From positions 300,548-364,244 of the forward strand of contig KL197743.1 of assembly GCA_000697665.1 (NCBI GenBank): a stretch of DNA of 63,697 nucleotides, written 5' to 3'. The notes under the pieces are model-generated. The model ran no database searches and was not told the origin of the DNA. It saw only the letters and a program-made list of their open reading frames with translations. Position 1 is the stretch's first letter. Each line of letters begins with the position of its first letter. The DNA is from Jaapia argillacea MUCL 33604 (Eukaryota; Basidiomycota; Agaricomycetes; Jaapiales; Jaapiaceae). The translations under genes and the position numbers were made by a program. Of this stretch, positions 165 through 51,196 are shown piece by piece.

Positions 165-2170
165 ATGGTGGTGTATGAGGAGATGGATCACGATGCCCTT
201 GTTGCCATTACCTTGTCTCTTCGGGCTGACAACGACCAGCTCAGAACGGAGCTACAACGTTCGCGGTTGCTGAATGAACGTTTCGCCAAATTACTTGCAG
301 AGGATGAAAGCGAGTCGAAGGTGAAAACAGCCTGTTCCCGAATGGTTCATCGCTAACTGAAATGGATAGCTTCATCCAGGCCCGTTGCAGGAACATCACC
401 AACCACCTACCCCGAAGGTAAGCCATCGTGTCTCCCTAACCCCCCCTGTGAGAATTGACAGGTTGCTGGGAGGTAGAAGTCACATAGCCCTCAGCTTCAA
501 CCCTCGGGCCTCCCGGAGTCGATTCCGGAGTCGGTACTCGTGAAGAAAGACATATCGTTGCCCCCATATCCTCCCCAACTATCGCCGCCCCGACCCTTTA
601 GTGAGCCCCTATCGGAGCTCACAGACTTCTCTGCGCAAAACGATATGGACCTCCCCCACCAAGCCTACGAAGACGACGCCTCCTTCGGCGATCTCGTCCG
701 TGAATCGACGGCCGGGGACCAGAAGCCATCCATCCCAGTGGCTGTGGGGTCTACACGGGAAATGTCGCACTCAAAAAAGCGTAGACGGCTTATCATGGAC
801 TGTGTGGAGCTAGAAGTGCGCCGTAGTAGTCGGACACCCATTGCCCGGGGTCCTTCCCAGTCTTCTTCGAGCCTTCCTGGCTCGTCTGGTGTCGCTTCTG
901 CATTCCCGCCTATCAAGGCGGAAGGATCGATCAAGCTGGAGAGTTCAGATGCTGCTTTCCGGGGGAAAACCGAGGCGGAACTCGACGATTTCATAGTAAA
1001 GCGCGAGAATGTGAGACCTTGTCACGATTACCTTCGAGACCCGCGTGATCTGACGATTTCCATTTATCCACCATAGTCGGAGATTAGGATTCTGGAACGA
1101 GACCGCGTCTTACCTGAAGGGTCTATTCGCGCCCGTCTTGCACTCGTCAACAACCTGACATACTTTATCGACGATGTACCCGATGACATTCTCAAGGTCA
1201 CCTGCTCGCGCCTTTTCATTGCCAAGACATTTGGCGGCAATACCCAAGATACATCTCCCCGCATGGCTCAGAAGTTCTTGGATAAACATCCCTACCGAGA
1301 TTTTCTATACATCAACATCGAAAAATATCAACCAGAAGGTCCTAAAAATCCGGGAGATGCAGCTTTGTTCTTCTCCGTTGGCGAAGCGGACTCATTTGTT
1401 TGGGGGACTGTCCAACGTGTGTTTATTCGCATAGCCTCAGATGTCTGGCGTTATGTCGGCCAATATTTAATGACTCCCGTACCATCGCTCTCGATTGAGG
1501 AATGGCGTTCTCAAAAGCCTATGGTACGTATCTATCTAAATCCCTGATTTTTTCCCCTCCAATGCTGACATGACACATCGGATCTCATTCAGATGAAGAA
1601 AACATGGGCGAATAAAATCTTGCAGAAAGGGTGGGGCAAGAATACCCGTATTATGCTTACCCTCTGGCGACAATTGGGACGCAAACCCACTCGGGCGGAG
1701 CTGGAAGCTGTTGATCAGGAACAAAAGTACAAAGATTTGACGGTAGAGGAAATAATTGAGGGCTTCGACACCGGAAAAGAAGTATGTTCCCACTTCACCT
1801 TCTCGTACTCTACACCTCATCACCTTCGTCATAGAAGATCGCAGTGTGCTGTATGGAATGTGTGGGCTATGACTCTACCTTCCAGCACGAAATCGCGGAA
1901 AAACTGACAACTTGGGTACCCCCTCCACGCAAACCCCGAAAGGGTAAGAAGAGAGCAGCTCCCGATTCCGACTCGGAGCCCACTCCTGAACCCAGAGTCA
2001 AGAAGGTTCCACGCCCAAAGCACCCTCAGGCGGAAGAGACTGAGGATGAATCCGAGGGGGAGTCGGAACAAGAGGACGAGCTTCACGAGGATCAGAGTGC
2101 TGTCAGTGTAGATCGGGAGTTGATCTACGTTGCCAAAGGCACTCGCAGCCGCCCGAGACCTATCGACTAG
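165..2170 (+). CDS. DUF6697-like nuclear protein, copy A
   Basis: Unknown function; first of five paralogues here. Best model has six exons (165-320, 370-417, 477-1010, 1077-1523, 1593-1781, 1835-2170), all joins in phase, giving 569 aa. Order: a short N-terminal coiled coil (Leu/Arg/Glu rich, residues ~10-45), a disordered acidic and Ser-rich stretch, a basic KKRRR cluster followed by MDCVELEV, the core with FGGN, KHPYRDF and PEGPKNPGD, a helical module with WRQLGRKPTRAEL, a CCMECVGYD motif, and an acidic tail ending GTRSRPRPID. The basic cluster suggests a nuclear protein; that is inference. The last acceptor at 1834 was chosen because copy B has the same junction (GKE then xIAV). A start at 183 is also possible. 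I recall this architecture as the basidiomycete DUF6697 family, but the name needs a profile search. Confidence 0.75.
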
Positions 2171-2388
2171 TCACCACTTTGTTCCGTGGCGTACTTTTCG
2201 AACGATGCCTCATCTCTCTCTACGAATGTACCTGTTTCCTGTCGTTTCGTGCAAGTGGATGGGATGGATCAAGCGTTCCTTCGGGCCATGCCTGTACGAT
2301 CAAACTTTACTACTCTCAAAACGTAAACTCCCTGGGTCGATAAGAACCACAGTAATTTCGGCTATTCAGTAGTCTAAAATCGAGACCG

Positions 2389-4424
2389 ATGGAACGAAGT
2401 CGCTCCCTTCGTCTCGCACCTCCACCACCCTCCATGGACCCAGATCTTTCGGGAGATGAATACGAAAGTCTGAGCCACGATACACTCGTGGAAAAGCTTA
2501 AGTATGTTGGAGCGGAGAATGCTAGTCTCCGGATAAGGCTCGAACGTCTGCAAGTCGAAAATGACCATTTCCGCAAGTTACTTACTGGAGAGGAACGAGA
2601 AAATGATTCAAAGGTGGACAACTATCTTTTGGGAGGGCTATTCAATTCACTAACTTGTTCTATAGCTACCTTTGGCTTCATTTGGACTACTTGCCCATCT
2701 TCCGACTCCCAAGGTACTTATAGGATTCACTTTCGCATTTCAGACCTTCTGACACACCCTGTGCACGCAGAAGTCTGAAACACCTGAATACGATCCCCCG
2801 AGCCGTCTGGAATCCAATCCAGACGCGCTCAAACACGATGCTTCCCCTCCGTCTCACTCGGTCCTTCGGTCACCTCCACAAGTCGCCTTGGACGATCCGG
2901 ACTCGGAACTCGGCAACTTGACTGGTCAAGATGACTTCAGCCTATCCCAGCAAATCTACGAGAACGACGACTCTCGGTCACCTTCCGTCGCGGCCTCGTT
3001 GAACGTTGGCATAAAGCGAGAACTTTTGGACAATGACATCAAACCGCGATCTGCTCTGAAGCGAAGAAGAATGGTCCTGGATTGCGTAGAGATACCTGTC
3101 AGGCGTTCGACTCCACGTACTACCTCACGACCACCTGCACCTTCTCCGAAACTTCGCCGTTCTCCTGTCACTTCCGGATCTGCTCTCGTGAAAGCCGAGG
3201 TTCCTGTCGCTCACGTCCCAGTTGTACGAGTGAAACCTGAACCCTCTACGGAGGAAAAGTTGGATGAGTTCATAAGAGTCAAGCGCGAGAATGTAAGCTT
3301 TAAAGAACCTTTCCTTCGAGAAGGATATAGCCTAACCACTTTCATATGCAGCCTGAGATTAAGATTCGACCCGAGAATCGTGTCCTACCAGAAAGTTCAA
3401 TCCGCGCTCGTTTAGCCCTCGTCAACAACATTTCCTACGTTATAAACGATGTCCCCGAAGAAGTCCAACGCATCACAGTTACACGAGCTTTCTTCTCCAA
3501 GACGTTTGGTGGCAATACTCAAGCAACATTCCCGAGTATTGGGAAGAAGTTCCGGCAGAAACACCCGTACCGCAATTTCATGATGCTGAACTTGGACGAG
3601 TATAACCCTGAAGCCCCGAAGAACCCGGGCGACGCAGGACTTTTCTTCGGTCTCGGCAATTCAGAGGGTAGCGACTGGGGCAGTGATGGTCATATTGTTT
3701 TCGTTCGACTGCGGAGGAATATGTGGCTCCAGGTTGGTATATATACTATGAGTCCGGCGCCATCGCTTACCATTGAGGAGTGGAACTCTCAGAAGGCCGT
3801 AGTATGTGACCATGACATGGTTGACATCAATGCTCCTGGACTTATTGCGATCGATTCTAGGTGAAGACAACTTGGGCCGAAGATGTATGGGAGCAATCAT
3901 GGGGTCGTGATACTCGGGCAATTATTGTCCTCTGGCGAGAATTGGGTCGAAGGCCTACGCAGGACGAGTTGGACGACGCATTGGACACAAACCGAACATT
4001 TCAGAATCTGTCCCTTGAAGAAATTGTCGATGCCTTCTCGACAGGAAAAGAGGTCACCATTTCCCCATTTTCATTCCACGTCGTCTCACATCTTCTGGTA
4101 CAGACCATTGCCGTGTGGTGTATGGAGTGCATCGGTTACGAAGCCGATTTACAGAGGGACATTGTAGAAAATTTGAAAACTTGGGTACCTCCTCCTCCGC
4201 GGCCTAGGAAGTCAAAGAAGAAAGCAACGGGTGGTCGGAAATCCCAAAAAAGTGCCCCTCCGTCCAAACGTCCTCAAAAACTGGAGGAATCTGAGGAGGG
4301 GGAGGGGGAGGAATCTGAGGAAGAATCTAGCGAGGAACCGAACGAACCTGAAGATAATATCGAGGAGTTGCCTTACGTGCACCGAGGCACAGGCAGCCGA
4401 CCGCGACTCGCACTTATTGACTGA
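2389..4424 (+). CDS. DUF6697-like nuclear protein, copy B
   Basis: Tandem sister of copy A, 218 bp downstream in the same direction with the same exon pattern: a coiled-coil exon from ATG 2389, a small exon ending HLPTPK (copy A ends PPTPK), a long disordered exon with LKRRRMVLDCVEIPVRR, a core exon, a helical exon and a tail exon. Key motifs are FGGNTQATFP, KHPYRNFMMLN, YNPEAPKNPGDAGLFFG, LWRELGRRPTQDEL and WCMECIGYE. The C-terminus carries a Lys-rich stretch and a long Glu run before a GTGSRPR-type ending. Shared intron positions and higher mutual similarity than to copies C-E point to local tandem duplication. Function unknown; nuclear location inferred from the basic cluster. Confidence 0.75.
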
Positions 4425-5219
4425 CGACCAACCTGTGTAGTCACAAACCTAGATTTTTTCCGATTCGATACGGGCCTCGATACAGCTCAATGCCCTCGTC
4501 TCTGAGCTGTTGTCACGCACACTTCAGTCGTGGCCTGCAATTAGATCTGATCCATGACGCCCGAAGACAGATAAGCACGGTCAGGCGTGCCGGATGCTCG
4601 CAGCTCTTCTTTGGTTAATACTATCGACCCTGACGTGTAAAGACCTGCTGTGGCCATGTGTCGACAGAATCTATTCCTCTTGGGCTTAGGGTGACCCGCA
4701 GAACTCTGGAATATCTGCCGATGCATCGTGCATGCAACAGCGACGAGGCATCCGCCACCACTTCCTTATACGGATGGTGGTTGTTATAGCTTCCGTTCAT
4801 TTGTTCTCATAGTCACATTTCTCGCTTGGTTCCCTTGCTCCTTAAGTATTGCCTTGTTGTCCTTTTGCCATATCCCATTTGACGCGTTGTCATCGTCAAG
4901 ATTATCTCGCAGCAATGATGGCCATAAAAGACCTTTGACAAATGACTGGGATCAATCGTCTGATAAAAAGGTTCCGGACCGGCGTCTTGCTCCTTGGTTA
5001 GCCTCGAGGCAACCTTCCATACCTGGTGTTGCCGTCCTCATTGACTGCCTGCTGCTCTTGTTCTTCATCTCGTGCCACGCCGCAAACGCGAGCACAAAGA
5101 AGTTGCGTCAGGTATATGCAACCGATTGTTCAAGGGATCAAGCTGGCTCCCACACGATCTCTTTTCTGTCCACCTCTGCGCACTGTATTGAGCTCCTACG
5201 CCGACCGAACGCATTGATT
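4425..5219. other. Intergenic, nothing recognised
   Basis: About 800 bp between copy B and the next gene. Open frames here are short, lack family motifs and are not conserved elsewhere in the window. It presumably holds the 3' end of copy B and the promoter of the downstream gene; I see no clear TATA box or terminator. Confidence 0.5.
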
Positions 5220-8200: not shown

Positions 8201-8629
8201 GTGCTTCTCGCCGCACCTTCTCATTCAACCAAGCAACATTCATTGACCTCACGTTCCGTTCGCCGCGATCCTTCCCTGCTACACTCTCCTGCCCTAGCAT
8301 CGATGCGTTCTGCGTTCACTCATGTCGCCTCTCAACGGAGAACTGCTCGGTCGCGAATGGTTACACTTGCCGACAGACTATCACTCTCAGGGTCGTCCGT
8401 AGACGGATCTGATGCCGGCTCGACAGCCAGAGAAGAGGATCTCAAGAAGGCGCTGGAAGCTGCTTTGGGAAGTCTCGGAGCACTGGGGCATATTTATGAG
8501 CAACGAGAGGCTCGATGGCGTGAAGAGATGCGGAAGTTGAGTGACGATCGCGAGCGGGTCGAGCTGCTGTTGGGGCAAGCTCTTGGACCTGGGATCTCAG
8601 GTCACGGCATGAACGGTGGCGGACGTTGA
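5220..8629 (+). CDS. Large disordered Pro/Ser/Gln-rich protein, C-terminal helix
   Basis: Unknown function. The long open frame has no ATG near its 5' end, so I place a first exon at 5220-5274 (MTESPQRSRK...), an intron 5275-5538 (acceptor at 5532 also fits the frame), exon 2 at 5539-8087, an intron 8088-8164 with a CTAAC branch site, and exon 3 at 8165-8629. Predicted length 1022 aa. Most of it is low complexity: poly-Pro runs (RPIPPPPPIH), a Gln-rich tract near 7100-7180, and acidic runs before the second intron. A more ordered segment near 5935-6100 (FASMEGNWQITEQLMKDIE) and the C-terminal ~100 residues (charged helix with HIYEQREARWREEM) may be structured. It resembles basidiomycete conserved hypothetical proteins; a regulatory or scaffold role would be a guess. 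Confidence 0.65.
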
Positions 8630-8899
8630 GCTCTACTTGTGGACCTCCCATACGGCCCCACGGGCATCGTTGGCATTCAATCCTTTCCTCATGTTTTCAT
8701 TTCGACTGTTCATTCCTACGCATCTCAACACAAGTCGACTTCTGCTCTGATGTTCGGGTTAGGGTTCTGTGGATGTCTCGGGACAACTGTTGGCCATCGT
8801 GTGGTTTCAAAGGGAAGATCGACATGATTGTAACTGAGAAAAAGCCTTCAGCATGTAGCTCCAACACAAGGAGTCGTATTTTCAAGGAATATAATCCCT

Positions 8900-10582
8900 C
8901 TACTTAAGGAAGTAAACGTTATTCTTCTCCTTTCTAATACCTGGCTTTATGCGTGAGTAGATGACTCCGTCCTTTTGGATGTCACGTCCCTGATTTGAGA
9001 CGATGTCGTTCTGGAAATCCTGATCGTAGCCCACGCATTTCATCGACCACGCAGACAGTTGCTTAAATATACCCATGAACATCAATAAGGGGGAGTGGCT
9101 CGTGTATGGCTTACCAGATCTCCGTTCGTGAATGCTCTATCAATGTCCTCGTTTGTGAGGTCGTTGGTTTGTAAATTGTGGCGAAGCTGAACCCGAATGG
9201 GCTCCGCCCATATTTCTTTAACAATACATTTAACCCACCGCCGCTTCACCTGCAAAAAGAACAAAAATTAACTATAACACCGAGAAGAGTGACATACTTA
9301 CGAGATCAGAGAGCGACATCCATTCCTCAACTGACAGAGGGGTGAGGGACTGTGGCTTGTACTGCCCGACATACAACCACATATTTTTTCTCAAACGAAC
9401 TATGACCCGACACTCGACAGATGGGTTGATTTTTTCCAAATCTCCCATACCGAGAAAGATTCCAGGGAGCCCGGGGCGCTTTGGTACCTCAGGATTGAGA
9501 GTGCCAGGGTGCAGAAACATGAACTCGTCATAGGGATGGATGAATTTCGGTCCTAGGCTCGGTCTTCGACTCTGAAAGTTCCCGCCAAATACTTTCGATA
9601 GATACTTGTCTGGAGAGACAGCGACATGCAATTTCGATTCGTCGTAATTGATGGTGTGGGTATGAAATTTGATGGTCTGTAGACGCGCATAAACCATTCG
9701 GCGAGGAAGGCGTCGCCATGGCACATCTGCGAGAGTCTGGGGGATTACGGGGATTGGCGCATCAGAGAAAATACATTCGTAAACGATGACCTGGGCTCAC
9801 ATTTTCCAGGAATTCTAACTTTGCTTTTGCGGTTGCTTCGTCAATCTCCTCGGCTTTCACGTCCATTTTGGGTGAACGAATCTCACTAGAAGTTGCACCA
9901 ATACCCGACTGTGATCGACACCGACGAATCTGGTGAGGAGGGAGGGAAGTGATGAAGACGCTATCCAACACAGTCTTGCGACGTTTTGATGGTGGGGGCT
10001 TCGCGTCGTCGGCATCTTCGGCTTTGAGGAGGTTTGAGGTTATTGTATCACCTCCAGACTCAGTTTTGAAGACGTGATTGATGCCAGTGGAACCAAAGAT
10101 GGAAGCCTGATGGCTGGGCGTGTGCCTTCGCACATCGTCCTGAACATACGCGCCACTATCGTCCTCGACATGGATTGGCGCGCCTGCATCAATATGACGC
10201 GACACCAGAGGCTTGAGTTCGGTAGGCTCAGGTTTGTCCTCCTGTTTTGAAGTAAAGATGCGGTGGTTTCAGGGAGATTTCAGTGACGAACCTTGACTTC
10301 TGCCCCCAGATCGCGACCGGATTGCCCTACGATGACCTCGTTTACTGTAAGATCACCTACATTTGGAAACAACTCACCTCCGCTGGACGATTGGCACAAG
10401 CTCGCGCACTCAGCTTGCAACTTTTCAACCACGACACGTATTTTCACTATGATGTCAATGAGTTCTCTTTGTGACAAGTCTTTGAAGTCTTCGTATCGCA
10501 GCGACTGGGTGGTTTCCATGTTGCTGGAGAATGTAAGAGCGTCTTGCGATGTAGGTGGTGGTGGAGAAGGATAGAAAGCCAA
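8900..10582 (-). CDS. DUF6697-like protein, copy C (diverged, short tail)
   Basis: Fifth-family member on the minus strand, the most diverged of the set. From ATG 10582 it has an N-terminal helix (ELIDIIVKIRVVVEKLQAEC), a basic KRRKTVLDSVFIT motif near 9940-9990, a core with FGGNFQSRRPS, IHPYDEFMFLH and NPEVPKRPG near 9450-9590, an LRKNMWLYVGQY strand, a helical exon near 9110-9250, and a last exon with AWSMKCVGYDQDFQNDI. Two things are unusual: the helical module lacks the WRELGRxPT segment seen in A, B, D and E, and the protein ends soon after the CVGYD motif without the acidic/RPRP tail. It could still be expressed, since the frames join cleanly, but it looks to be losing its C-terminal half. 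Confidence 0.65.
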
Positions 10583-18160: not shown

Positions 18161-18162
18161 AC

Positions 18163-34084: not shown

Positions 34085-36544
34085 CTACAGCTCCCCAAAC
34101 ACCAATCCCAACTGACCCTCAATGAAATCACACTGCGCAACTCGATAAGCCTCCACACTATCCGGACTCCCAATAAGCACCTCATTATCCCCCGTATACG
34201 GTGGCCAAACCAGAGAAGCTCCAGAATAATTCGGTGTCCCGTTCCTAGCCAAATTTGTCCATCTCTTGATAATTTCTCGAGTGGTCTCCAACTGGAGGGG
34301 CGTCAACGGTTGATACAAACTATCCGTCTCGGCAGTTGCGAAAGCAAAGTAGAGCTCATCAGCGTGACAAACCTAGGAAAGGAAAGTCGACGAGAAAGCA
34401 TCATTAGAATCGTATCAATAAGAAATTTAGTGGAAATTGACGCACTTGACCAACGCAAGTGGCAGGGTTGGGTGTAAGCGGAGACCCAAGCCCAATAGTA
34501 AACTCCACCTTGTACACATTCCCCGGATTCGTAGTGTTCGTCATCAACGAAGCCAAATACGTATTGGGACAATGAACATCATAATCCGTCACAAACTGCG
34601 CCAACTCGAAAAACGCTCCCGAAATCACTCCACCGGCAGGAGGAGCTGCGGTATCATACGGATACAAGGTGGTTTGGTTCGCCACAAGAGCCGCGTCGGT
34701 CGAATTGATGAAGAGCCCGAGGTTATCGGTGAAGACGGTAGCGGATGTGTTCTTGGGGTTGATTGTGGAAGGGAGGAAGTAACAGTACTCGCACTGATTA
34801 CTTGCGAATATCGTGGGTACTCGGCCGTAAGCGCCATCTCGAATGCTGGAGGCGATATCGGCGAGAACGTAATCCCCATCGATGGTAATATCCCATGATA
34901 TCCCGAGATTGTACGACGCTAGAGCAACGTCGGCGGCAGGGAGAGCAGCGACACAGGATGCGATGGTAGAATCAAATGTGGTCGTCGACTCTGGAGTGCA
35001 ATTAAGTGTTTTTGCGAGACCGAGAGAGGTGTTTAGAGCGAGTCTTGGCGAATAGAAAGGGTTGGATGCGCTGAAATCTGATTCCAGGACGGCAGCACCT
35101 AATGACAAGACATAAACACGAACGTATGCCGTTAACGCAAGGAAACAAGACTCACTGAAAAGACCTGCTGTGTACTTGGGGTTCGTCCCGAGTAGATAGC
35201 GAGTCATAGTTCCCCCAGCAGACTCGCCATAAATCAAAACCTTGGTTTTCTGGTCGCGGGCGTCAATCAATTACGACCGTACCTCCTTGAAACGCTGGAA
35301 ATCGACTCACGTCTCCACCAAAAGCCTCGATATTATCTTGAACCCACTCTAAAGCCATCAACGCATCTTTCAAAGCCGCATTACTGGCATTGAACCACCC
35401 AAAGGCCGTCAACCTATAATTGATCGTGACCAATACCACTCCCCCATACGATACCAAATTGGTGCCGTCGTAAATGTTGGAGATGGATGGGCCGACGTAG
35501 CCAGAGGTAGTCATGTTATAAGGGAAGGGACCAGAATCGCCTGTGTTCAGACCTCCTCCATGGACTGATTAGGAATCGAAACAGGTATTCGGATGGTGAG
35601 ATTCGACAGAAACAAACAAGGGGGAAGAGGCTCACTGAAGAACATGACGGGGAGTTTTGGTGCAGTCGGATCGAGTACACTTCCGGTATTGACGACAGGA
35701 GAGAAGACGTTGAGAGTAAGACAATCTTCATTCGTCCACACGAGATGACCATTGTCCGCATCAGGTGGCTATCCTCATGTTCAATTCGATCGCAACGATG
35801 ACATGTAGCAGTGAAACTCACCTGTGCACATATCGGTCCGTAGGCTGTAGTGTTTCTCACCTCTTCCTCACCAACGTTCACAGCAACAGGTGGAGCGAAC
35901 CTCGTGCTCGTCGCATACTTGATACCCAAGAACCTCCAAGAGAACTTATCTCTATAGCCGGTGAGAATGCCTGCTGAAGGTGTGGAGAGGCTGATTTGAC
36001 GGGAGATGTCGGTGGAGGATGAATTTGAGCGAGTCAGGGGAGCGGAATTGGTGCAGAGAGCAGGGAGTTGTTGGTTGAAATCTGAGGCGTTGGACAGGGA
36101 AGCAGATGATGGGGTGAAGATGGAGCAACCAGCTGAGAGGTGGGTGGTTGATAAATATGATGTTTTAAAACGAGATGAAGTTGGATACTGACTTTCTCCC
36201 ATAATCCAGATACTCTGGCCTTCACTGATACCAGCACCATAAATGGGATTCACAAGCGCGCTGCTTATATTCGCATTCGTCAACCCAGTATAATCACTAG
36301 GAGGTGGCAACAAAGTTTCTTGTAACGCCGCACAAGCTGATTCCGCTTCTGCGCATGTGAACGTCGGGCTTTTGAGGTAGAGTGCGCTTGCACGGTTGAT
36401 ATTGGTGGAGTCGAGATCGTTGTTGGAGACGACGACGACGTCAGTGTCTGGGTAGGAGGACCAAGCTTTAGCGATTTGAGCCGTCGCCAGCACAAGAGAG
36501 GCACAGATTGCCCATGAGGGGCTGAAAGTACGTGCTTTCGCCAT
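34085..36544 (-). CDS. Secreted type-B carboxylesterase, copy 1
   Basis: Probable secreted alpha/beta-hydrolase esterase or lipase. From ATG 36544 a signal peptide (WAICASLVLATAQIAKA) is followed by a ~190-aa N-terminal module with paired Cys (FTCAEAESACAAL; CSIF; LCTNSAPLTRSNSS), then the catalytic domain: WRFLGIKYA, NEDCLTLNVFSP, oxyanion HGGG in VHGGGLNTGD, TINYRLTAFGW, the nucleophile elbow YGESAGG, and a late CHADELYF that is a good candidate for the catalytic His. Several short introns interrupt it (for example at ~36207, 35825, 35640, 35270, 35155, 34445). Many N-glycosylation sites fit secretion. Substrate is unknown. It diverges from DUF6697 copy D (634 bp between starts) and has a paralogue at 51.6 kb. 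Confidence 0.88.
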
Positions 36545-36586
36545 CCAAGCGAACGAAGAGCATCCTACTTGCCTATATCGCGAGGT

Positions 36587-36594
36587 TTTATAAT
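36587..36594 (-). promoter_or_regulatory. TATA box of carboxylesterase 1
   Basis: TTATAAAA on the minus strand, ~43 bp upstream of the ATG at 36544. This suggests a leader of only ~15-20 nt and supports the chosen start over the longer frame. Confidence 0.55.
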
Positions 36595-37178
36595 CGATAT
36601 TCACGGGAGAATCGAAGGATAGTCGAAGGAGCGCATTACAACACGATGACCTCCCAATTCATTCGGAGTGCCGCTACTAGTGAATGGAACCGTCTATAAC
36701 CTGCCGGATTTCGTGATCTGACCCAGTGACGACTCACCTGTTCCGCCTCGACACCAAAGGCTGAGGTGGTTATGCCCTCATCCCATCGATTCCCCAGGTA
36801 ATCCTGCGAGTTCTGAAGCAAATATAACTGCGGTGAGCCAGGCGTTCGTCTGAGAAGACATTGTGGAAAAGATATCCAGGCGTTTCTGAAGGCCTCGAGG
36901 AGGGAAGAACCGTTCGAATGCTCGCTGGATACGAAGTGCGGTCCGGGAATGAAGTCATTGAAGAGCCAGATATTTTCTACTCCCGAGATTGGCCGACCAT
37001 CGCCGACGACGCCAAAGCTTTCCGAGACTCGAGCGATGCAAGCTCTGGCAGCACTCCATGGGCTGAGGAGGTGGTGGTGATTTCAGGTGTGTATGGGGGC
37101 GTTCGGGGCCGGGAGCAAGCGGCCGCGTTCTGATACCAGAAACCATATTGTAAGTTCAACTTGAACCAGGGTCCTAGT

Positions 37179-39144
37179 ATGGACTCGGAAAGCAAAAAAG
37201 TACCACTCGAACTGGGCCCGAGCAGTCTCGCCGGGTCGTCTTCAGAGGAACTCATCACATTGATCCTCTCCTTGAAGACAGAAAATGTGGATCTCCTGCA
37301 CGCTGTTCAGATTGAAAAAGACATCCAGGAGAAGTTTAGAAAGGTGATGGGATGGGAGCTCTTTGATGGTAATATGAGTGTCGATACCGCGTCTCGGCCA
37401 AGTGAAGGGTACAGAGAGGTTTGTTTCCTCAGTTCTTGGTCATGTTCTAGCGTCTGACGATCCTTTCCTGGTAGAAATTGGAAGAATCGCAGCAGCATGA
37501 TATACGGCTTGGAACTCCACAGGTCAGTGAATCTGCCTTGGTGTCATTTCATCGTCCTCGTCCTCTCCGTTCATATGCATTCAGCCATCGTTGGGTCCCA
37601 CTTCGTCGATTGTATCATCGCAATCCGTCACGAATGTTGAAGGAACCCTTTGTTCCGAAAAGGAGTCTTCCAATGTCCGCAATGAAGACGCTCAAGAAAC
37701 AAGAATCCCCACTTCGACGCCCTTTTCGCCGATTTCACCTGACGCCTTCTCTGGTCCTGCAGATTTTGATAGCAGCCCTGATTCGACCAATTTACACTCG
37801 GGATTGACCCCTTCACCCACCGTGTCGACAAGCGTAAAGCGCGAAGATGATAATGAGATCCGACCACCCTCTTCCAAGAAACGTAAATTTGTGTTCGACG
37901 GAGTTGTCATCACCAGCCGTCCTCCTAGCACTCGACCTACAAAGAAGCGCTTGTTCTCGATCAAAGACGAGCCTGTCGATGATGAGACTATCGCCTCCAG
38001 ATTAGCCTCGCTCGAAAATGTGAGTCGTCTTGGTCGCGAACTACTCGTATCACTGTCGGTTTCTTATCATCGATATACGGCATTTTCCTACAAGCCTGAT
38101 GTCAAGATCAAGGACGAAATACGCATGGACTCAAACTCCGTTTACGATCGCCTCAAGCTGATCGACTTCTCTACATATCTCGTTGAACTCGACGAGAAGA
38201 TCAAGAACGTTATGGTCCCTCGAGCTTTCATCTCAGATACCTACGGTGGTAACCTCCGCCAAACTCTACCAATGATTAAGGAGGAGAAGCTTCGAATTCA
38301 TGGTTACGATAACTGGATGATGGTGAACTTGGACTTCAACCCCGAGAGCCCTCAGCACCCAGGATACCCAGGGTTGTTCTTTGCTACTAGGGCCTTTGAA
38401 CTCAACAAAGAAATGAGGCTGTTCGTGAAGTATGCTGAAGGGAAATGGAATTACATGGGTCAGTATGTGAATTCTTTGGCGCCTCCGTTGACCGCAGAGG
38501 AATGGAACTGCCAGAGTGAAGTGGTAAGTTTGGTTGTGCGGCTGCTTGAGCAGCTCCTCGGTTGATGGTGTGATATAGGTCAAGCGAACGTGGTCTACGA
38601 GACTTTCTGCGAAATGGGGCAAGTGGGTGCGAGCTAGGATCATACTTCGCCGAGAATTGGGTCGCGAACCTACGGAAGATGAAGTCGATGAAGCTATGGT
38701 CAGTAAGGAAGCCTACGATAACGTGACTGTGCAAGAGATCCGAGACGCGTATGCTTTGGGATATGAGGTACGTCAACCCACATTCCGTCTGCGTAATAGG
38801 ACTCGGAGCTCGGTGTTGATTCTATTTATATGTAGCGTATCGTGGTTTGGTGCATGAAGTGCGTTGGCTATGATGTCGATTTCCAAAAGGAAATCGTTCG
38901 CAAACGAGCTAGTTGGGTGCCGACCCCCAAAACCAAAACCAAAACCAAAACCAAAACCAAAAAGAAGGGTGGAAAGCAGAAGTCGAAGGTGAAGACGAGA
39001 AGTCTTGTTGTGGATGTGGTGCAACCTGAGAGTGAGGAGGACGTCCTGGAGCAACAGTATCTTAGCGACGAGATGGAGGGCCTTGATGAAGAGCCTCAGT
39101 ATACTCCGAGGGGCACTCGAAGTCGTCCACGTCCAGTCAAATAG
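37179..39144 (+). CDS. DUF6697-like nuclear protein, copy D
   Basis: Family member with N-terminal coiled coil (EELITLILSLKTENVDLLHA), disordered middle, SKKRKFVFDGVVITSRPP basic/LDxV-type motif, core with YGGNLRQTLP, IHGYDNWMMVN and NPESPQHPGYPGLFF, helical module RIILRRELGREPTEDEV, VWCMKCVGYDVDF, and a Lys-rich tail ending GTRSRPRPVK. The tail contains a run of alternating Lys-Thr encoded by a CCAAAA hexanucleotide repeat (38926-38964). Closest to copy E (shared DGVVIT, HGYDN, RIILRR). Transcribed away from carboxylesterase 1, an arrangement repeated for copy E and carboxylesterase 2. Confidence 0.75.
38926..38964 (+). repeat. CCAAAA hexanucleotide repeat, in frame
   Basis: About six tandem CCAAAA units in the last exon of copy D. 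Each unit adds a Lys-Thr pair, so length changes stay in frame. Confidence 0.9.
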
Positions 39145-39360
39145 GGCGGATGCCCGCCAGGTCTCCTCGCCAGGCATTAACTCCAACCAATCGATCGCAC
39201 ACTTGGATTGTACCTCGTTGTTGTCCAAATGGCAAAGGAGAGGCGAGTCCACAGGCCGAGCACTCGCTTTCTCTGAGCATCCACTCTCGGAAGGATCAGG
39301 TTCTGTTGAAGAACTACTTCTACTTCTACAGTCTAACAAGTCTATGGCTACATATCACTT

Positions 39361-40667: not shown

Positions 40668-41152
40668 CCTGGATGAGGGTATGAAAAGAAAGCGAGACGA
40701 TGGTCTGGTTATCGACCTAAGCAACGTTTGTGGCGAAAAACTTGGGTGAAGTTTCGCAATCATCGATGGACGATCTCAGCCACTCCGGGACCTTGGTCCA
40801 CACAGATCCCACGGATGACCCATACATACCTTTTCACTCTAGTCGGTCCAGCAGGGACCTCCCTCGAAATGACCCTGCTTGTCACGATCGAGAGAACATG
40901 CTTCGCCTACAGTGTCTCATATTCTCTTGACTCGACACTGTACGAGGTATGAAGTGAAGCCATGCCTCTTAGAAGACATGCGGCTCCGATCGGCAGAGTC
41001 ACAAAAGGGAGGACAGAAACTCAACGAACAAAGAAGCATCGCGGATCTACCCAAACAATGGCGGTATAAAGTGAGGGCGTTCCAACTTCTGGTATCTGAT
41101 CAACTTCATCCCACTCCTCATTGAACTTTTGCTAACAAGTATTTCTCAGATT

Positions 41153-43139
41153 ATGGGCCAGAGACACCAGATCTTCGCCATAGCCCGTGTTCGAAGGCAC
41201 GGCGTACCACCGGATGCGCCTCCTGCCTATCGTTGTGTAGCAGCTTTCCACCATCAGTGGTCTTATGGCCGCCTTCCCGCACGAGCCATGCATCGTCTAC
41301 TCACTCTTCTCAAACAACCGTTCAACGCGGAAGTCGTCCGAGCGGAACTTCGTGCGATTGACGGTCAATACGGAGGTTGGAGGGAAAGCCCTTCGATCCC
41401 TGATATCCCATGTCCCTTTGTGACTGCGCTGGTTGGGACGGCTTGGTGCGTCGATCTGGAAGATGTCAAACATCCTTATGGAACTGGTAGTCTCTCGGGC
41501 AGTGCCCTATCTGCCGCCATGGGCAGCGCAGAAGGAGGTATGTTGTTCCTTCCTTGCAAATACTTGTACTGATATTGTCTCAGATAATAATGATGGTATA
41601 TCTGTCGTTGACGTCACCGATCCTTTGTCCCCGTCCTACTGCTTTGTAAACATAGGCGGCATGGAATCCGAAGTCGACACTGACCATTGGGTTCCACTCT
41701 CCGCAATGGGATACGTCCGAGCGTACTACCCTGACCCTTCATCCTCTGGTCCTCAATTGGAAGGAGATGAAGCGAAGAGAGCACAGCAACAGGAGCAAAG
41801 CGTTCGGGCGACTATCAATCTACTGGAAGGAGAACCATTAATCGATCTCTCCGCCCTCGCCGAAGCGTGGCCCATGGAATATGCGGACGTGTTTGAGGAA
41901 AGCGAGGCTGATGCTGGATCGGAAAAGGAAGTCCCTCGCGTGGCTGCAGCTATTCCTTCTTTGACAGATATGTCTTTTGGCCCTGCCGTCAAATATGCAC
42001 TCGAAACCGAGGACTTGTCCGAGATCGAGGCCATGATCTGGATGCCTGGCAAGGCCGCCCTCGTGAAGTCCATCCTGAAAGGACACCAACCGTTCCCGGA
42101 CGTTGCACTCTCTATTCTCGCGAAGGTCATGGAATTTGACTCCCGATCCAAGACGGGATGTTGGGATCTCACCGATATTTCTCTCACTTCCGACCAGATA
42201 ACCAGGCTCGTCTTGATGGCCACTCACCCCATCGCCTCTTTGAACATCTCATTCAATCCCCACGTAACGGCTGAGACTGTTCGACAGATTTTATCGTCCT
42301 CCCCGTCTATCCATCGGTTGGTTCTTATGAGCTGCCCCGCGCTCCCTGCCGCCGACCTCAATTCTCTTCTTTCCACCTCCCCTCAACTATTCTCCAACCT
42401 TGAGGCATTGGTTCACCGAGCCTTCCTTTGCATATGGTCAGAGGACGAGGATGACGCAGACACCAGCACCTACCCTGCGGCATTCACATTGGTCAAAAAC
42501 CGTCTCGACAGCCAATCTCTCCAAAGTTGGTCGCTACCCCTCCTTTCGCCCAGTGTTATCGTCCAAAACCTGAACGACTACTTGCAAACCATCGTTGAGG
42601 CCGAGGGCAGTCAGTACGATGATGGGATGGCCCCTCTGGCTGCCATCTCCGGAGGATTAAGGAGGGAAGGCGAACCCTGGGGGAAGAGGAGCATCGTCGG
42701 AGTGCCAGGTGGGTCTTTGGAGTGGGCGAATGGTGAGGGTTGGGTATTCGTGTTTCCGTATGGGGAGAGTTATGGACAGAATCCGGTGCCACAGAGCTGG
42801 GGTTTTGTGAAGTTTAGGAAGGGAGCACTAAACGAAGCCATCGAGCTGAAGGCCACTCAAGCGGAAGCCAAGTCTGATGACGTCGCCACTGGCGAGGATC
42901 CTGCTATTCAGAAGGCTCCGGAAGCGGCCAAACCATCGGGCGAACCTGCGTGCGAGGTTCATGACCTCCGATCCTTTCTCGCCATTGTCTGCAAGGAGAA
43001 GCCACCCCCCTCCGAGGAGTCTATTGCAAAATTAGAGGCGACTCTGTCGAAGTTGACTACTGAGAAAGCAACCCCTCTGATGAGTGCCAGCCATGGAGAT
43101 GCGTTGCTCAAGCTGGCAATGTCCTTTGGCTTCTATTAA
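41153..43139 (+). CDS. MGQRHQ-family protein, copy 1 (LRR-like middle)
   Basis: Two exons (41153-41537, 41584-43139) join in phase to 646 aa. I recognise the N-terminus (MGQRHQIFAIARVRRHG, then AYRCVAAFHHQW and GRLPARAM) from basidiomycete hypothetical proteins, but know no assigned function. After NNDGISVVDVTDP and CFVNIGGME comes an acidic stretch, then a region at ~350-430 with leucine-rich-repeat rhythm (LTDISLTSDQITRL, IASLNISFNPHVTAETV, IHRLVLMSCPAL). The C-terminal part has EVHDLRSFL and a helix. The next gene is a tandem copy with the same intron position. The LRR assignment is tentative. Confidence 0.72.
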
Positions 43140-43456
43140 GATACAATTCATCGCCTGCATGTATGCAGTCAATTCATCAATCATCGTTGCATCGAGCCTT
43201 TATTGGCTGTAGCTTGCCTAGTTGTCTCGCCTTCTAGGATGGCTTTATTACACTGTAACAGTGGGAGCTGTGTCTACCATTGCGGTCCGGCGACAAACAA
43301 CATCGTAAGTACTGAGTACTGAGACTTTGAGGCTGTACAGTCGTGTCCGGACGTTGACCCTCCGGAGCCGTAGAACAAAAGACGGTCGTCAACCAATCTC
43401 AGGAGCGTTCACAACGCTATGTCTATCTTTCCCCCCCGACATTCATACCCCATCTC

Positions 43457-45459
43457 ATGGGTCAAAGACATCAAGTTTTCGCGATAGCTCGCCTTCGCCG
43501 ACACGGTGCGACACCAAACACGCCGCCTGCTTACCGTTGTGTAGCAGCCTACCACCACGAATGGTGTTGTGGGCGTCTCCCAGCCAGAGCTATGCATCGT
43601 TTGATCAATCTGGTGAAACTGCCCTCCAACGCTGAAGTTATTCAAGGGGAGCTTCGTGCGATCGACGGCTTGTATGGAGGATGGGGTGAGGCGCCCATGA
43701 TTCCCGAAAGCCCTTGCCCATTCGTCGCTGCGATCTTAGGTTTGGCTTGGTCTGTTGATCTGGAGGACGTGAAGCAGCCTTATGGGAGTGGAATCGGCCT
43801 TGAGAACGACGTGTTACCAGCTGATATGGGAAGCTCAAACGGACGTTCGTCACTTTCTGTCAAATGTCTATGAATATCCCTCACTTGCACTCCTTTGATA
43901 GTTAATAACGACGGGATATCGGTGATTGACATCACCGACCCTTTGGCACCATCGTATTGCTTCGTGAATATCGGTGGCATGGATTCTGATCGAGACACGC
44001 CCCATTGGGCCCCCCTCACCGCGGAGGAATACGTTCGGGCGTACTACCCACTACCATCACCCCATACTAGCCCATCAGCGATGGAGGAAAGTGTTCAGTC
44101 CACCATCAATTCACTCCAAGGGGAGAAACTGATCGAACTTCGTCACCTTGCTGAGGCTTGGCCCTCAGAGTACGAGGACATTTTGAAGCAGCGCGAGTTT
44201 GACGATCCCGACCTCGTCGGTGAAGAGGAATGGGAAGATGTCGGTGGTAGTGTCATCCCTTCCTTGGTGGAAATGACTCTCGGGCCTGCAGTCAAGCAAT
44301 CTCTGGAGTCCGAAGACATATCTGAGATTGAGAGGATGTCGTGGATGCCTGGGATGCCTTCGTACATCAAGTCTACCCTCAGAGGTAGGCAGCCGTTCCC
44401 AGGTTTTGCATTGTCACTCCTCGGGACTGCCATGAATTCAGATCATCGAGTTGAGCAGGGATGTTGGGACCTCAGTGATATGCACCTCACATCAGACCAG
44501 ATCGTTCACTTGGTGGAGACGGCGGATCGTCCTATAACATCTCTCAACCTTTCGTTCAACCTGAACGTAACAACTTCTACTCTTCGCCAGATCCTAACTA
44601 TTTCCCCATCCATCCACCGTCTCGTCCTACTGGGTTGTCCCTCCCTCCCCGACGCAGATCTCATTTCCCTCCTCACCTCTTCCCCTCACCTCTTCTCGAA
44701 AATCGACGCTCTCCTCCATCCTGCATTCCTCCAAATCAATTCAAGCCCGGACAACCCCATATATCCCAACGCCTTCGCCATAACAATCGATCGCGAGACG
44801 CAATTTCCGAAGACTTGGTCGCTCCCCTATTTCACACCCCACCTCGTCGTTCAAAACCTAACTGATTACCTCCAAACCATCACCGAGAATGAATCACTGT
44901 CTGATACGTATGATGATGGGATAGCGCCTTTAGCTGCCCTTTGTGGTGGCGTTCGGAGAAATGGTGAAGGGTGGGGGAAACGGAGTGTTATTGGAATACC
45001 GGCGAAAGTGACTGGATGGGTTGGGGAGGGGTGGGTGTTTGCGTTTGCGTTTTCCATCCTGGATACGGGCATGTCGGCGAAGGGCATCGTTGGGGATTTT
45101 TGAAGTTTGGGGACGGAGGGAGGGGAACGTCTGTTAATGAGGAGGGGGAAGGTGGAGATGGTCAAGCATCAACTGTGTTTGCTGCCTCCGAAACGGGTGA
45201 GGAATCGGCTGATTCCCGGTTTACGGATCCACTTTGCGAGGTCCACGACCTCCGGTCCTTCCTCGACATCATATCAAAAGATCGAGAACCCGCTCCGGAA
45301 GCAGCCATTGTGAAGCTCGAGATGATACTAGAAAAGCTGGTTAGGGTGAAACATGGCCATTTGATGAGAGAGTCCGATGTGAGAGCGTTGATGAAGAAGA
45401 CCTCGAGAGCTGCGGCGTTGGCTAGACGAGGATATTTAGATTTTGGAGGGGATGAGTAG
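43457..45459 (+). pseudogene. MGQRHQ-family protein, copy 2, apparent frameshift
   Basis: Tandem paralogue 317 bp downstream of copy 1. Exons 43457-43844 and 43902 onward share its intron position and motifs (MGQRHQVFAIARLRRHG, NNDGISVIDITDP, CFVNIGGMD, LTSDQIVHLVE, IHRLVLLGCPSL). The reading frame stops at 45103, but copy 1 homology (WGFLKFG, EVHDLRSFL) continues in the -1 frame to a stop at 45459. The switch lies around 45036-45053, near GTTTGCGTTTGCGTTTTCC. One missing T, or another single-base change, would explain it; a sequencing error or a cryptic intron ending at about 45104 are alternatives. If real, the last ~125 residues are lost. Confidence 0.7.
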
Positions 45460-46913
45460 TTGGATACGAAAGGGATGGGCGGACTGGTTTTCCAAAGGAG
45501 GGTTATACAGGCCAGGGACTGGGTGAAAGTGAATTCGGCCTCGTTTTGGGGTAAACAATCTATCATATCCTGACATAATCTCCACCAAATGGCAACCAGG
45601 ACAAGGACGTGATCGTTCCGAGCGGTATGATGCAGTTGGTCCCCGTACCTCTCGCGGATCAGTTGGCGAGTTACAGGTTTTTGAGTTCTGAGCCTGGCCT
45701 CTCACAATAACCTGGTAGGGATTGCCAGATAACCCGAATATCAGAGTTGGTATTCGGAACAACGAAAGTCCAGAGGAATAACCGGTCAGGAGGTCATACA
45801 GATTGTTCGACAGATGAAAAAGACCCCGAGGCAGAGTAGAGCACTAGAACAACGAGGCGGGTTGGACGAGGGAAGCACCAGAAACGAGAAACAAAAAGCA
45901 GAAAAAACATGAGGCGCGATAGCTGATGATCCGAGGGGTTTTGAGGCCCTTCATCTTCCACTTCATCTTCAGATGATGGCCTTCGAATCTGGATCCGTCG
46001 AGCGTGTCATAGGGCAGCGGCATTCATAGAAGTGGGGATGGCAGATGAGACATGACCTAATGAAACAATGGACAGCGAAACTTCCGATCCGGTTTGGCCG
46101 AGAAGCAGTTCGATAAGGGAACCTCTTGCGAGGAGGTGCATGGGCGCAGAGGGGCCGCCTTGCACACCTTGAATCGCGGCAAGGGGAAAAGATTAAGAAG
46201 TGAGCTCGGATCTTGGGGTCCCAAAAGTGGTAAAAATTCGCCAGAGCTGCGAAGCAGTCGAAGGCGCATACAAGACCCTAGCTTATGCATTGAGAATCAA
46301 TCTATCAACTAGACTCGTTAAGTGAGCCGCTGGAAGGCTTACAAAGGACAGGATGACGGAAATGTGGCGGATTGCGGGTGATTTGGCCGACTGATTCCTC
46401 GCTGCAGATCCTTTGAAGGGGACGGAACGATCAGAAATATCAGAAACGTTTTATCTGGGTAGGAATCCGAGTCAGATAGAGAGGATAGATAGAACGAGGA
46501 AGTTGAGGACCAAGTTCAATCAAGCTCGGGGCGGAGATGAAGATAGCGACGCCACGAAACCAAGCGCAGCCAAACAAGACAACGGCTGTTTCCTTTGCGA
46601 CGAGGCTTGATTTGCTGGACACGCTGTGCAAGACAACAAACGTTTCGTCGGAAAAGGCTTTCGACAAAGGGCGCTAGCTGCAAACGACCCTAAGGGTCCT
46701 TTGATTCATCCTCATATATATTCCCCGCATAACCGCAGAACTAACCTCCACTCCTCCAAATCTACCCTGTCTTGATTTCGATTCTGCTTTTTTATTGCTC
46801 ACTCGCTGGGACGAGAGAGATTACAAAAACAAGTGAATGGTTTCCACAGTCCTGACTTCGTCTTCAAATCCGGATTCTTCGACAGGTGCGTGTTTTCGAA
46901 ACGTGTTTGTATC
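45460..46913. other. Intergenic, promoter of SH3 gene
   Basis: About 1.45 kb. Open frames are short. A TATA-like CATATATA sits near 46713-46720 and is followed by a pyrimidine-rich leader, consistent with a transcript starting near 46750. Nothing else recognised. Confidence 0.45.
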
Positions 46914-48632
46914 ATGGATATCTCACATCTAACTTTGTTTTGCCTCTGCCTGCGCACCGCACCGTATAACCGTGACCACCCGCTTGGTCCATTCTCTGGG
47001 ATGTTGCTCTCAATTCTCTCGAATTTATGGCTATGGCTCGCATCAATCTTACACCGACTCTCAGAAATCCGACGTCTCTCACTCTCAATCGACAGTCCGT
47101 ACGACCCATTCCCATCTCCTTCATCCTCGTTTCTCCCACCTCCTATGCCCGGCGCACACGAGTTCGCCACCAAACCACCGCCAACTGGGAAGTACGGCAA
47201 AAACAGGAAACGGGAAGATTCTTCGCACCATTCGTCACAACAACAACAGCAGCCAATTAACGGCACTGGGAACGGGAAGGGGAATTGTAGTATTAATAGT
47301 GATAAGGAGAACGACCGAGGGAATCAGAGTAACGACAGCATGAATCCGGCATCGATTTTGACTTCGACAAAGTCACTTTTGTCTTCTGCTTCGTCCTCGC
47401 CTGATTCTTCTGCCGCGGCATCCCCAGCGACGCCTACCGCACCCTCTCCTACCCATACGCCTAGCACGCCACCGATGAAGCACATGTCTACCGTGAATCC
47501 GACTACGGCGACAACCCCGACTACCGTTGCCACGACCACTTCGCCTACCATAATACCCTCCACTCCTCCTCAGCATAGCGATACCACTTCTAGCGCCCCT
47601 TCCTCCTCCATTCACTCTTCTCGTCCCGCACCGCCTTCCCCGGCGGTTTCACGCCGGACTTCTGGAGCTACCTCCCTCTCCCGACATTCCTCCAAATCAT
47701 CCTCCGTCCACCCATTTTCGACGTCCCCTCGAAGGTCATCGTCGACCTCCAAGGCTCAGTCACGTTTGAGCCAGGTATCGATCTCACACCAGATGCAGAA
47801 GTTATCGCCCAGTTCTTCACCTTCGTACGCTCAACAAGTTCACATCCCACCTCCCCACGCCCTAGGCGCGTACTCTCCTCCATCATCCCCTTCAAAACCC
47901 ATCTCATTCGTCTCGTCTTCCTCATCCCAACAACCACCCGCACCAACACAAAAACGCCGATCGACGTTCTTTGCCAAGATTCGAGATTTTGCGTTTCCGA
48001 AGGATGATGAGAGACACACGGGTAATGGACCTTTAGCGCCGAAACCGAATAGGTACCCAAAACGGATGTCGACGCTTTCGTATGCTACTTCTTCTGAGGA
48101 GTCGTCGGATGATGATGATGACGATGGGAGGGGTGGATGGGGTGCGATGAGGTGGGGTTTGGGGAATGCTGCTTGGACTTTGGGTGGTGGTGGAAGTAAA
48201 GAGAAGGAGAGGACTGGGAGAGGTCATGAGGGTATGCCCTCACGACATGATTTCGACCTAAACTTTTCAACTCATACCCAACCTGAAGCATCGACTGCTT
48301 CCTCCCCCTCCACCCACCTCTCTCACGGCTTCACCTCCGAACCGGACCAGGAAGAAGGAGATGATGAGTTTGATGAGGAGTTTTCGGAGACTTCGGGGGA
48401 TGGAGAGGAACCTTTGTATCCTGGGTTGTATAAGGCTCTGTATGCGTTTGTGCCGGAGGGAACTGCTGAGATGGCGTTGGAGGAGGATCAGGTTGTTAGG
48501 GTTATTGGGAGGGGTGGGGGAGTTGGATGGGCTGTGGTTGATAGAGAGGGAGGTGGAGGTGGACATGCGCTTGTGCCGGAGAGTTATTTGGAGGTTGTTA
48601 GACTTGATGATGAGGATGGCGAGAGTGAGTAG
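46914..48632 (+). CDS. SH3-domain protein with long disordered N-terminus
   Basis: Open frame to 48632; the first in-frame ATG after the TATA element is 46914 (572 aa), but the ATG at 47145 (MPGAHEFATK, 495 aa) starts the part that looks coding. The middle is Ser/Thr/Pro rich, with KRRSTFFAKIRDFAFPKDDE as a conserved-looking basic/aromatic stretch and an Asp run at ~48105-48125. The C-terminal ~70 residues form an SH3 domain: YKALYAFVPEGTAEMALEED (ALYDF-type start), VVRVIGRGGGVGWAVV and HALVPESYLEVV (the PxxY end). SH3 domains bind proline motifs; similarity to fungal Nbp2/Skb5-type single-SH3 adaptors is possible but not proven. The RT-loop and Trp of the ligand groove are present. Confidence 0.7.
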   Translation: MDISHLTLFCLCLRTAPYNRDHPLGPFSGMLLSILSNLWLWLASILHRLSEIRRLSLSIDSPYDPFPSPSSSFLPPPMPGAHEFATKPPPTGKYGKNRKREDSSHHSSQQQQQPINGTGNGKGNCSINSDKENDRGNQSNDSMNPASILTSTKSLLSSASSSPDSSAAASPATPTAPSPTHTPSTPPMKHMSTVNPTTATTPTTVATTTSPTIIPSTPPQHSDTTSSAPSSSIHSSRPAPPSPAVSRRTSGATSLSRHSSKSSSVHPFSTSPRRSSSTSKAQSRLSQVSISHQMQKLSPSSSPSYAQQVHIPPPHALGAYSPPSSPSKPISFVSSSSSQQPPAPTQKRRSTFFAKIRDFAFPKDDERHTGNGPLAPKPNRYPKRMSTLSYATSSEESSDDDDDDGRGGWGAMRWGLGNAAWTLGGGGSKEKERTGRGHEGMPSRHDFDLNFSTHTQPEASTASSPSTHLSHGFTSEPDQEEGDDEFDEEFSETSGDGEEPLYPGLYKALYAFVPEGTAEMALEEDQVVRVIGRGGGVGWAVVDREGGGGGHALVPESYLEVVRLDDEDGESE

Positions 48633-49337
48633 GACCTTTCGGGGGGAATTGGGGTTGGACTTTTTGTGTGGTGCGTTGCTTTTTTGTCGGTTAGGTGTTA
48701 GATGTTGTACTGATTCGACGCTTTTGTAGGGATTTTTTGTTGTAAAATCGCCTATGTTGTGTTTGTAATATTTTGGTGTTCAGTGTTCACTACTTACGAT
48801 TTACGTTTGAACCAAGGGGGGAAAGAAAGGCTGGTGACTTTCTGGGGGTAGGATACGTGGGCGGCTTTGCACTGTCAGCACATTGTTCTTTTTCGCGCAT
48901 ACAATCATGTAGTTCAGTAGTTCAGATGTTCTTTTATGACTGTTATGTGCTTTCATGTTTTGGTATGTAGTATGGGATGTACGACGTGTAATGACCCTCC
49001 AACGTCCCCACCGAGGATTTGGGGCAAACTAACACCGTAGCTACAGTAAGTTCAAGTTTGAACTCTAAGTCTACTCCCGAGCTTTCCCGAGTACTAGGAC
49101 TGGAATATCGGCAGTGATGGCGCTTGGCTGAACATAAGCTTAACTTCGCGAGGATGACTCAGAGAGGTTATCAAGAGTTGGACGAGTGCGACCAGGAGTG
49201 CGACTCCAAGTATTCGGGTGGGGGATCCTCTACGTAGGGCGATAGGGGAATTCGTGGAAGTCATCAAGGACACTTAGGAAATTAGGGGTATAAACAGTGA
49301 TAACGCATAATTATGGTAAAGACCACGTTTTCGACAT
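48633..49337. other. Convergent 3' regions
   Basis: About 700 bp between the SH3 gene stop and the stop of DUF6697 copy E. T-rich just after the SH3 gene; no coding or RNA feature recognised. Confidence 0.45.
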
Positions 49338-51196
49338 TCAGCGACGAGGCCGACGGCCAGCTGTTGCTCGACGAAGGCGAGAAACATGTGCAGCACCTTT
49401 CGCTTTCTGATCCATCTTTGAATCTTTGCGCTTGGCCCTCTTGACACCTTTCGCCTTCGCAGGTGGAGTCCAGTCGGGAGTGTATGCATCTGCGATCGTC
49501 CTCTGGAAACCCTCGTCATACCCAACGCACTTCAGGGCGTATAGGAAGATTTTCTATAGAATAATCTGTAATCAAGAAAGAGAGATAGATCGCAGAGATT
49601 CGGAGGCTGACCTCCTGGCCTACGACATAGGCGTTCTCGATCTCAGACTCGGTGAGATCCTGATGGGTAAAGCCTGCCTCCATAGCTTTCTCGAACTCTC
49701 TCTTAGTGGGCTCGCGATGGAGACGCCGGCGGAGGATGATGCGGGTTCGGATCTCCCTACCCCACTTATTATCCATAATACCTTTCGCCCAGGTTCGTTT
49801 GAACTATCCTCTTCACAATGAGTGAGGACATGAATAAATCAATAAGGGCGACGCACTGCATTGGATTGTGATGTAAATTCGTCGCTTGTCAAAGAATCCA
49901 CTTCAACGAGCTCATACTGTCCCTTATAACCAAACTCCTTGGGTTTGATACCGACGAAGACACGTTGTTCCGGACGGGTCTCTGCGCGAGGTGAGTAGAA
50001 TAAGCCTGGAGAACCTGGGTATTTTGGGGCCTCAGGATTGTAGTTGCAGTTCAACATCATGAAGTTGTCGTAACCATGTTGTTGGACCCTTTCGGAGGCA
50101 ACTTCTGGGAATGTTTTTTGAGGGTTACCACCGAAGAGGTTGCTCACGAATGCTCGAGGGACTTTGACGTCCTTGATTCCTTCGTCAAGAGTGATGGGGT
50201 ATGGCTCGAAACCGATGGTACGAATTCGTTCGTACACAGTTCCGGCTGAGTCGATCTTCAACCTTGACTTTGACATCGGGCTGGACTCAAGATGAATGAT
50301 AAAAAAGTCGAATTATGATGGGATTCATCGACTCACGTGGTCCAGAGCTGCGACCAGCTTCGCAACCTGCTCATCATCAAAGTCAGGTTCAGACTTGACA
50401 GTGGCAGCCGTTCGACCGATATCTCCTCGAGAACTTTGACGAGATGAATTTGGGTGCGATTGAGAACGAAGATGTGGAGGTGGTGTCGTGATCACTACAC
50501 CATCCAACACTTGGATTTGTCTTCGTCGTTTAGGAGGGGGAGGTTTAACATCGAGATCCTCCTCCACTTTCGCGAGTGTACCTTCAAATGCAAGTGAAGC
50601 CCGACGCTTTGAAGGTGGTGCAGGATGGAGAGTCCCATCAAGGTCGACTGATTCCGAAGAGCCAGGATCAACGTCATCTTCGAGATCTGTTAGATCTGAC
50701 ATTGGGCTGAGTGATCGTTGTTCAACATGGTGAGACGGCGAGGTCCCAACGCCGTCGTCCTGAAATGACTGATCAAAGGGGCCCGGGAGCTCGAAACCAA
50801 GCAAGATTGGTTTGGGACTTGAGAGCTTCTGTGTGGTAAGAACAGTCACGTCATCAGCGAGCTTGAGAGGTGACAACCATAGCCTACTTTACCTTCAAGT
50901 TCGGAACAGACGGGTCGGATGTCTTGTAAACGTGGGAGCTGGTGGTCTGGGTGGAGATTTCAGCGACAGACGGACGACAGGAACGAGTACTCTCTCACCG
51001 GCTTTGCCTTGGTTTCATCCTTGATATCGCGTGCCCGCTGGAGCTGCCTACGAAGTTCCTCCAATCTTGTTACTTCGTCGTACAGGTTGAATATCACTCT
51101 GACAAGTTCTTGGTGTGACTTGTCGCGAAGTTCATCTTCCGACATCCCACCGGAGGGACTCTTAGAGTCCACTTCCTGAGTAAAAGGAGAGTTCAT
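49338..51196 (-). CDS. DUF6697-like nuclear protein, copy E
   Basis: Family member, closest to copy D. From ATG 51196: helix with ELVRVIFNLYDEVTRLEEL, acidic disordered middle, KRRRQIQVLDGVVITTPPP, a core with FGGNPQKTFP, QHGYDNFMMLN and NPEAPKYPGSPGLFY, helical module WGREIRTRIILRRRLHREPT, then ALKCVGYDEGFQRTI and a strongly basic tail ending TAGRRPRR. The tail has lost the acidic part and the GTRSRPRP ending of A and D. Starts further up (51262) are possible. Transcribed away from carboxylesterase 2 with 447 bp between the start codons. Confidence 0.74.

Follow-up and report, generated by a model that had tools for sequence, protein, structure and literature searches.

Five DUF6697 genes with SUMO-type sequence motifs, and a relic sixth copy, at the end of a fungal contig

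The description of PF20411 in Pfam assigns DUF6697 no function, and its model covers only the C-terminal part of the proteins considered here; the coiled coil, SUMO-type sites, basic cluster and tail fall outside it. A name search for DUF6697 or PF20411 gave no match in the literature searched, and none of the titles and abstract openings returned by broader searches concerned the family. For the N-terminal part, the closest described systems are SUMO-regulated transcription factors of the NDSM and synergy-control type. These likewise carry [VI]KxE with acidic residues or proline in a linker next to a basic cluster; unlike them, the five proteins yielded no known DNA-binding domain in a Pfam search. 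The NDSM and [IVL]KxE definitions were taken from the abstracts of PMC5727262 and PMC3395311, and IKDEPVDDE of copy D and VKSEPDFDDE of copy E resemble the acidic extended SUMO motif in the abstract of PMC5727262.

The window, that is, the whole stretch of DNA analysed, is the final 63.7 kb of contig C35 in an assembly of 43.7 Mb. The short GT-AG introns, the presence of DUF6697, and the many TET/JBP matches suggest that the fungus is a basidiomycete. An earlier note on this DNA had listed five gene copies sharing motif order and intron positions, and spliced models confirmed them as genes A to E, with open frames and GT-AG phase-0 introns. Copy A (165-2170, plus strand) encodes 569 amino acids in exons 165-320, 370-417, 477-1010, 1077-1523, 1593-1781, and 1835-2170. 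Copy B (2389-4424, plus strand) encodes 585 amino acids in exons 2389-2613, 2666-2713, 2771-3292, 3352-3801, 3861-4052, and 4104-4424. Copy C (8900-10519, minus strand; 466 amino acids) has five exons and a short tail. Copies D (37179-39144, plus strand; 549 amino acids) and E (49338-51196, minus strand; 520 amino acids) have six exons each and are transcribed divergently from an esterase gene and a second esterase-like gene, respectively. Pairwise identity among the five is 24-46%.

The claim that intron positions match held completely for introns 3, 4, and 5, which occupy the same alignment columns in all five copies, all in phase 0. Introns 1 and 2 match nearly in A, B, D, and E (columns 92-99 and 116-120, a few gapped columns apart), whereas copy C reads through the intron 1 site, its next intron falling at column 110. 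The intron-3 acceptor of copy E differs, as the site aligned with the other copies breaks the frame; three of the seven AG acceptors tested gave a stop-free gene, and the idea that E is a pseudogene was dropped because these alternatives preserve the frame. The inner exon boundaries of copy B were recovered by a profile-guided spliced aligner, a consistency check only, since the profile included B. With a second profile, to which three paralogs were added, six shuffled or reversed controls scored 29-36 and the eight accepted paralog loci 61-319, three of these eight being in that profile.

Membership in DUF6697, which the earlier note had suggested, was established by a Pfam profile search: all five translations matched PF20411 (E up to 1 counted), with a best E of 1.2e-58. 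Copy A matched at 6e-53, profile positions 2-177 of 177 corresponding to A residues 295-481, and all five loci exceeded the curated cut-off of 23.9 bits in a genome search made exon by exon. The domain runs at full length from the FGGN side to C-V-G-Y-D, the core alignment spanning FGGN to CVGY in every copy. The FGGN and HPY/HGY core is kept in A-E as had been described, with Y replacing F in D. The WxLGRxPT motif stands as written in A and B but not in D (R-R-E-L-G-R-E-P-T) or E (R-R-L-H-R-E-P-T), and copy C has lost about 15 internal residues that include most of this helix.

The profile search placed DUF6697 at 20 positions genome-wide, which we grouped into 16 loci, a lower bound: five on C35, four on C14, and seven single. 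The alignment and tree took 13 of these; L012, L013, and L017, which scored under 60 in spliced alignment, were left out. On the unrooted tree, A-E formed one group apart from the eight other paralogs with an ultrafast bootstrap of 99, and in this sense the proposed local expansion was supported. Models of L014, L015, L016, and L018 are without the first part of the core and that of L011 is unreliable there (an empty exon); therefore, the N-terminal half of the core was compared in few paralogs. In L005, L009, and L010, whose models span that part, FGGN and HPY/HGY are not kept. The second cluster lies at 58-153 kb of contig C14 and comprises L005 and L009-L011; upstream of some of its loci lie long open frames that look like coiled coils, and downstream of L005 there is a strongly acidic stretch. 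DUF6697 was detected in 0 of 14 control genomes, and no confirmed relative emerged when viral contigs were scanned with two peptide patterns and prokaryote genome contigs with one. A wider alignment offered no stretch of sufficient conservation to scan.

The pattern recurring across the 13 aligned paralogs is PG-x-x-GL-x-F, W-x-Y-x-G-x-Y, L[ST]-x-E-E-[FW], and C-V-G-Y-D. Invariance is confined to three columns, G51, G83, and L93, with C176 and D180 coming close, and this does not resemble a catalytic residue set, in an alignment that is gappy, with several partial rows, and in which apparent loss of catalytic residues could be misalignment. Two fold predictions for the core were both too poor to name any fold; because these models were unusable, the term binding domain is based on conservation alone. 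In PDB searches with A1, A4, A5, and D exon 5, the best E was 0.18. L-G-R-x-P-T-x-x-E of DUF6697 is like the helix cap in the helix pairs of calmodulin and sigma factors (LG-x-x-PT-x-x-E; best E 0.35 and 0.22), but such relatives were rejected, as the matches rest on one helix-cap phrase.

The core might instead be an SRA/PUA-like beta-barrel, making DUF6697 a nucleic-acid reader (of modified cytosine, for example) that reads marks made or removed by TET/JBP enzymes. We counted for it the PG-x-x-GL-x-F and W-x-Y-x-G-x-Y hairpin pattern, which we take to recall SRA/DUF3427-type strands, the basic cluster in the N-terminal part, and the presence in the genome of one SRA place and 25 listed TET/JBP places, 17 of them over the cut-off. 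However, hmmscan of nine segments with E up to 10, under filters that drop most weak matches, returned no SRA, EVE, ASCH, or similar domain; TET/JBP and DUF6697 places share only contig C36, where they are some 230 kb apart, and the core models were unusable. We regard it as unlikely.

The earlier note had also placed C-x-x-C-[VI]-G-Y in all five copies and suggested a metal role. C-x-x-C is indeed carried by A, B, and D, as a metal-binding or zinc-ribbon-like family would require, but its first position is Ser in C and Ala in E. The first Cys occurs in only 3 of the 16 loci and in none of the 11 outside A-E, and the second is lost in L015 and L017 (the positions in L012, L013, and L017 were read by eye). 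On these alignments, the metal-binding reading of C-x-x-C appears largely refuted, and such a family is scarcely credible.

The 1242 residues that make up the N-terminal parts of A-E contain 12 [VI]KxE motifs, where shuffling gives a mean of 0.67; none of 2000 shuffles reached 12, and the reversed motif occurs once. The wider form [VILF]KxE occurs 15 times, with 1.49 expected by shuffling and 3 occurrences reversed. There are two [VI]KxE motifs in the 1447 residues of core and tail, and one in the 5392 residues of 12 further open frames that we chose elsewhere in the window. Every copy has one site within columns 303-305 (A at 303, B-E at 305), a Psi-K-x-E consensus at a conserved place, as in the sequence of a SUMO substrate, where conjugation may occur. 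By the exon map, A has two sites, IKAE and IKLE, within 912-941 (plus strand), and the common site is VKPE in B (3230-3241, plus), VKAE followed by acidic residues in C (9849-9860, minus), IKDE followed by PVDDE in D (37960-37971, plus), and VKSE followed by PDFDDE in E (50388-50399, minus). A and B share a further site at column 326, and B and D one at column 230; the column-230 site of C is LKAE and was counted in the wider set only. As A-E are related, the conserved sites are non-independent events, and their weight comes from retention within an otherwise fast-changing stretch. The [VI]KxE sites are also similar to the synergy-control motif.

All five copies have a basic cluster with [LFM]D-x-V-x-[IL] near the SUMO-type sites, and the nuclear-looking anatomy suggested for the family appears strengthened by these sites. 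Among eight paralog loci, each scanned over one stretch, [VI]KxE was present only in L015 and in L010 of the C14 cluster, the latter with VKPE and LKLE. L013 has VKVE, read by eye, and upstream of a paralog on C23 we read a similar arrangement, VKVEDEP followed by KRRRR. The N-terminal coiled coil claimed for all copies was only partly upheld by a home-made heptad score, which was reached by 3 of 200 shuffles for A and by 0 for B and E; copy C is borderline (11 of 200), and D lacks the signal (54 of 200). The N-terminal open frame of L011 also beats shuffles, whereas the C14 piece L005N does not (23 of 200), and L010 and L011 have below-cut-off matches to coiled-coil families; these paralog frames were taken singly, apart from the cores.

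On the observed family membership, exon structure, motif enrichment, and copy history, dead copy included, we build a tentative reading with a probability of roughly 0.42: the intact-looking, old DUF6697 paralogs A-E would encode oligomeric, SUMO-regulated nuclear adaptors or regulators with a non-enzymatic C-terminal binding domain. The short N-terminal coiled coil would oligomerise the protein, and a presumably disordered linker would bear a basic signal for nuclear import, with SUMO acceptor sites flanking it. The C-terminal DUF6697, composed of a hairpin-like part, a helical module, and a segment ending in C-V-G-Y-D, would bind a partner without catalysis, and SUMO on the linker may switch assembly on chromatin or with repressors. 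A conserved SUMO-type site beside a basic cluster gives this anonymous family a simple first test, namely localisation and a SUMO adduct. More speculatively, mushroom-forming fungi could have in DUF6697 a new chromatin-binding domain without enzymatic activity, found in oligomeric, SUMO-switched regulators undergoing cluster birth and death like animal KRAB/PML-type nuclear factors and possibly tied to a TET/JBP-rich epigenome; we think this broader version improbable.

For exon 4, pS and pN were 0.68 and 0.28 between A and B and 0.66 and 0.39 between D and E. With exon-4 pS at 0.66-0.68 and pN well below, the copies are old and their core is under purifying constraint. The claim of fast-evolving tails was borne out, pN being higher there than in the core in all four pairs computed, and the N-terminal parts behaved likewise. 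The dN/dS comparison proposed for A-B and D-E was run, but many pairs and segments show a dS that is high or at saturation, and the ratios are rough. Given this synonymous change and one relic copy, the word expansion should read old birth-and-death cluster.

An esterase-type gene stands head to head with each of copies D and E, the two pairs being in mirror order. The carboxylesterase-type gene beside D (34088-36658, minus strand) is known from open frames only, with COesterase over the cut-off in 34407-35270. The gene beside E (51593-54137, plus strand) is inverted relative to the first and named by its 61-89% identity to it, the two open frames scanned in it having given no Pfam match. The identity was measured in four pieces, with dS 1.35-1.72 and dN 0.06-0.33, and the DNA of the esterase part aligns over 2.4 kb at 67%. 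Between D and E, exon 4 has a dS of 1.57 and exon 5 one of 2.27, exon 3 being saturated, and dN is 0.53-0.60 over the three exons. In the simplest reading, D and E were probably copied together with the esterase as one inverted block, after which DUF6697 changed faster; the date is loose because of dS saturation, although exon-4 dS fits. The linked esterase thereby serves as an internal yardstick, which DUF6697 seems to outpace over apparently equal time. The intergenic stretches of the two divergent pairs showed no significant similarity (best E 0.36), and a promoter common to both pairs was rejected on that value.

When the five proteins were searched against the window, the sole match outside their genes, found through D, was at 54481-54678 (minus strand), which has 75% DNA identity to exon 3 of D over 158 bases and contains a stop and gaps. 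Judged by these features, it is a dead sixth copy. Further upstream of it, near 54.8 kb, an exon-1-like stretch was recognised by eye only.

This copy history also bears on two other explanations. The genes could belong to a fast-evolving conflict or allorecognition family, acting in self/non-self recognition or defence and kept by birth and death, with the nuclear features incidental. Such a role fits the two clusters, the relic, and a D/E dN (0.55 for exon 4 and 0.53 for exon 5) that exceeds the values for the linked esterase. It is opposed by the purifying constraint on the core, with pN well below pS, and by the translated pieces scanned, whose matches include no NLR, HET, or toxin domain. 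We see a minor but real chance for this explanation. A mobile-element gene, whether domesticated or still mobile, that spreads copies by transposition might likewise leave many scattered loci, a relic, and fast change. However, the five copies have introns in common, the block that D and E share with the esterase points to segmental duplication, and 20 open frames scanned gave no transposase match, which makes a mobile element very unlikely.

Several other features were observed in the window. A tandem duplicated gene occupies 41075-43139 and 43358-45459, with 55-70% identity in the best pieces; those of its open frames that were scanned matched nothing in Pfam. The open reading frame at 57315-58424 contains VIDLTD, which is SUMO-interaction-like by eye, one IKRE site, and a CRLC stretch; its PriA zinc-ribbon match (E 0.076) falls short of the cut-off. 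At about 20.3-20.9 kb, a run of N lies within purine-rich repeats, the window holding 529 N in total. Finally, 61599-61945 and 62028-62374 form an inverted repeat with 347-base arms that are 94% complementary and an 82-base spacer, giving it a foldback or MITE-like look.
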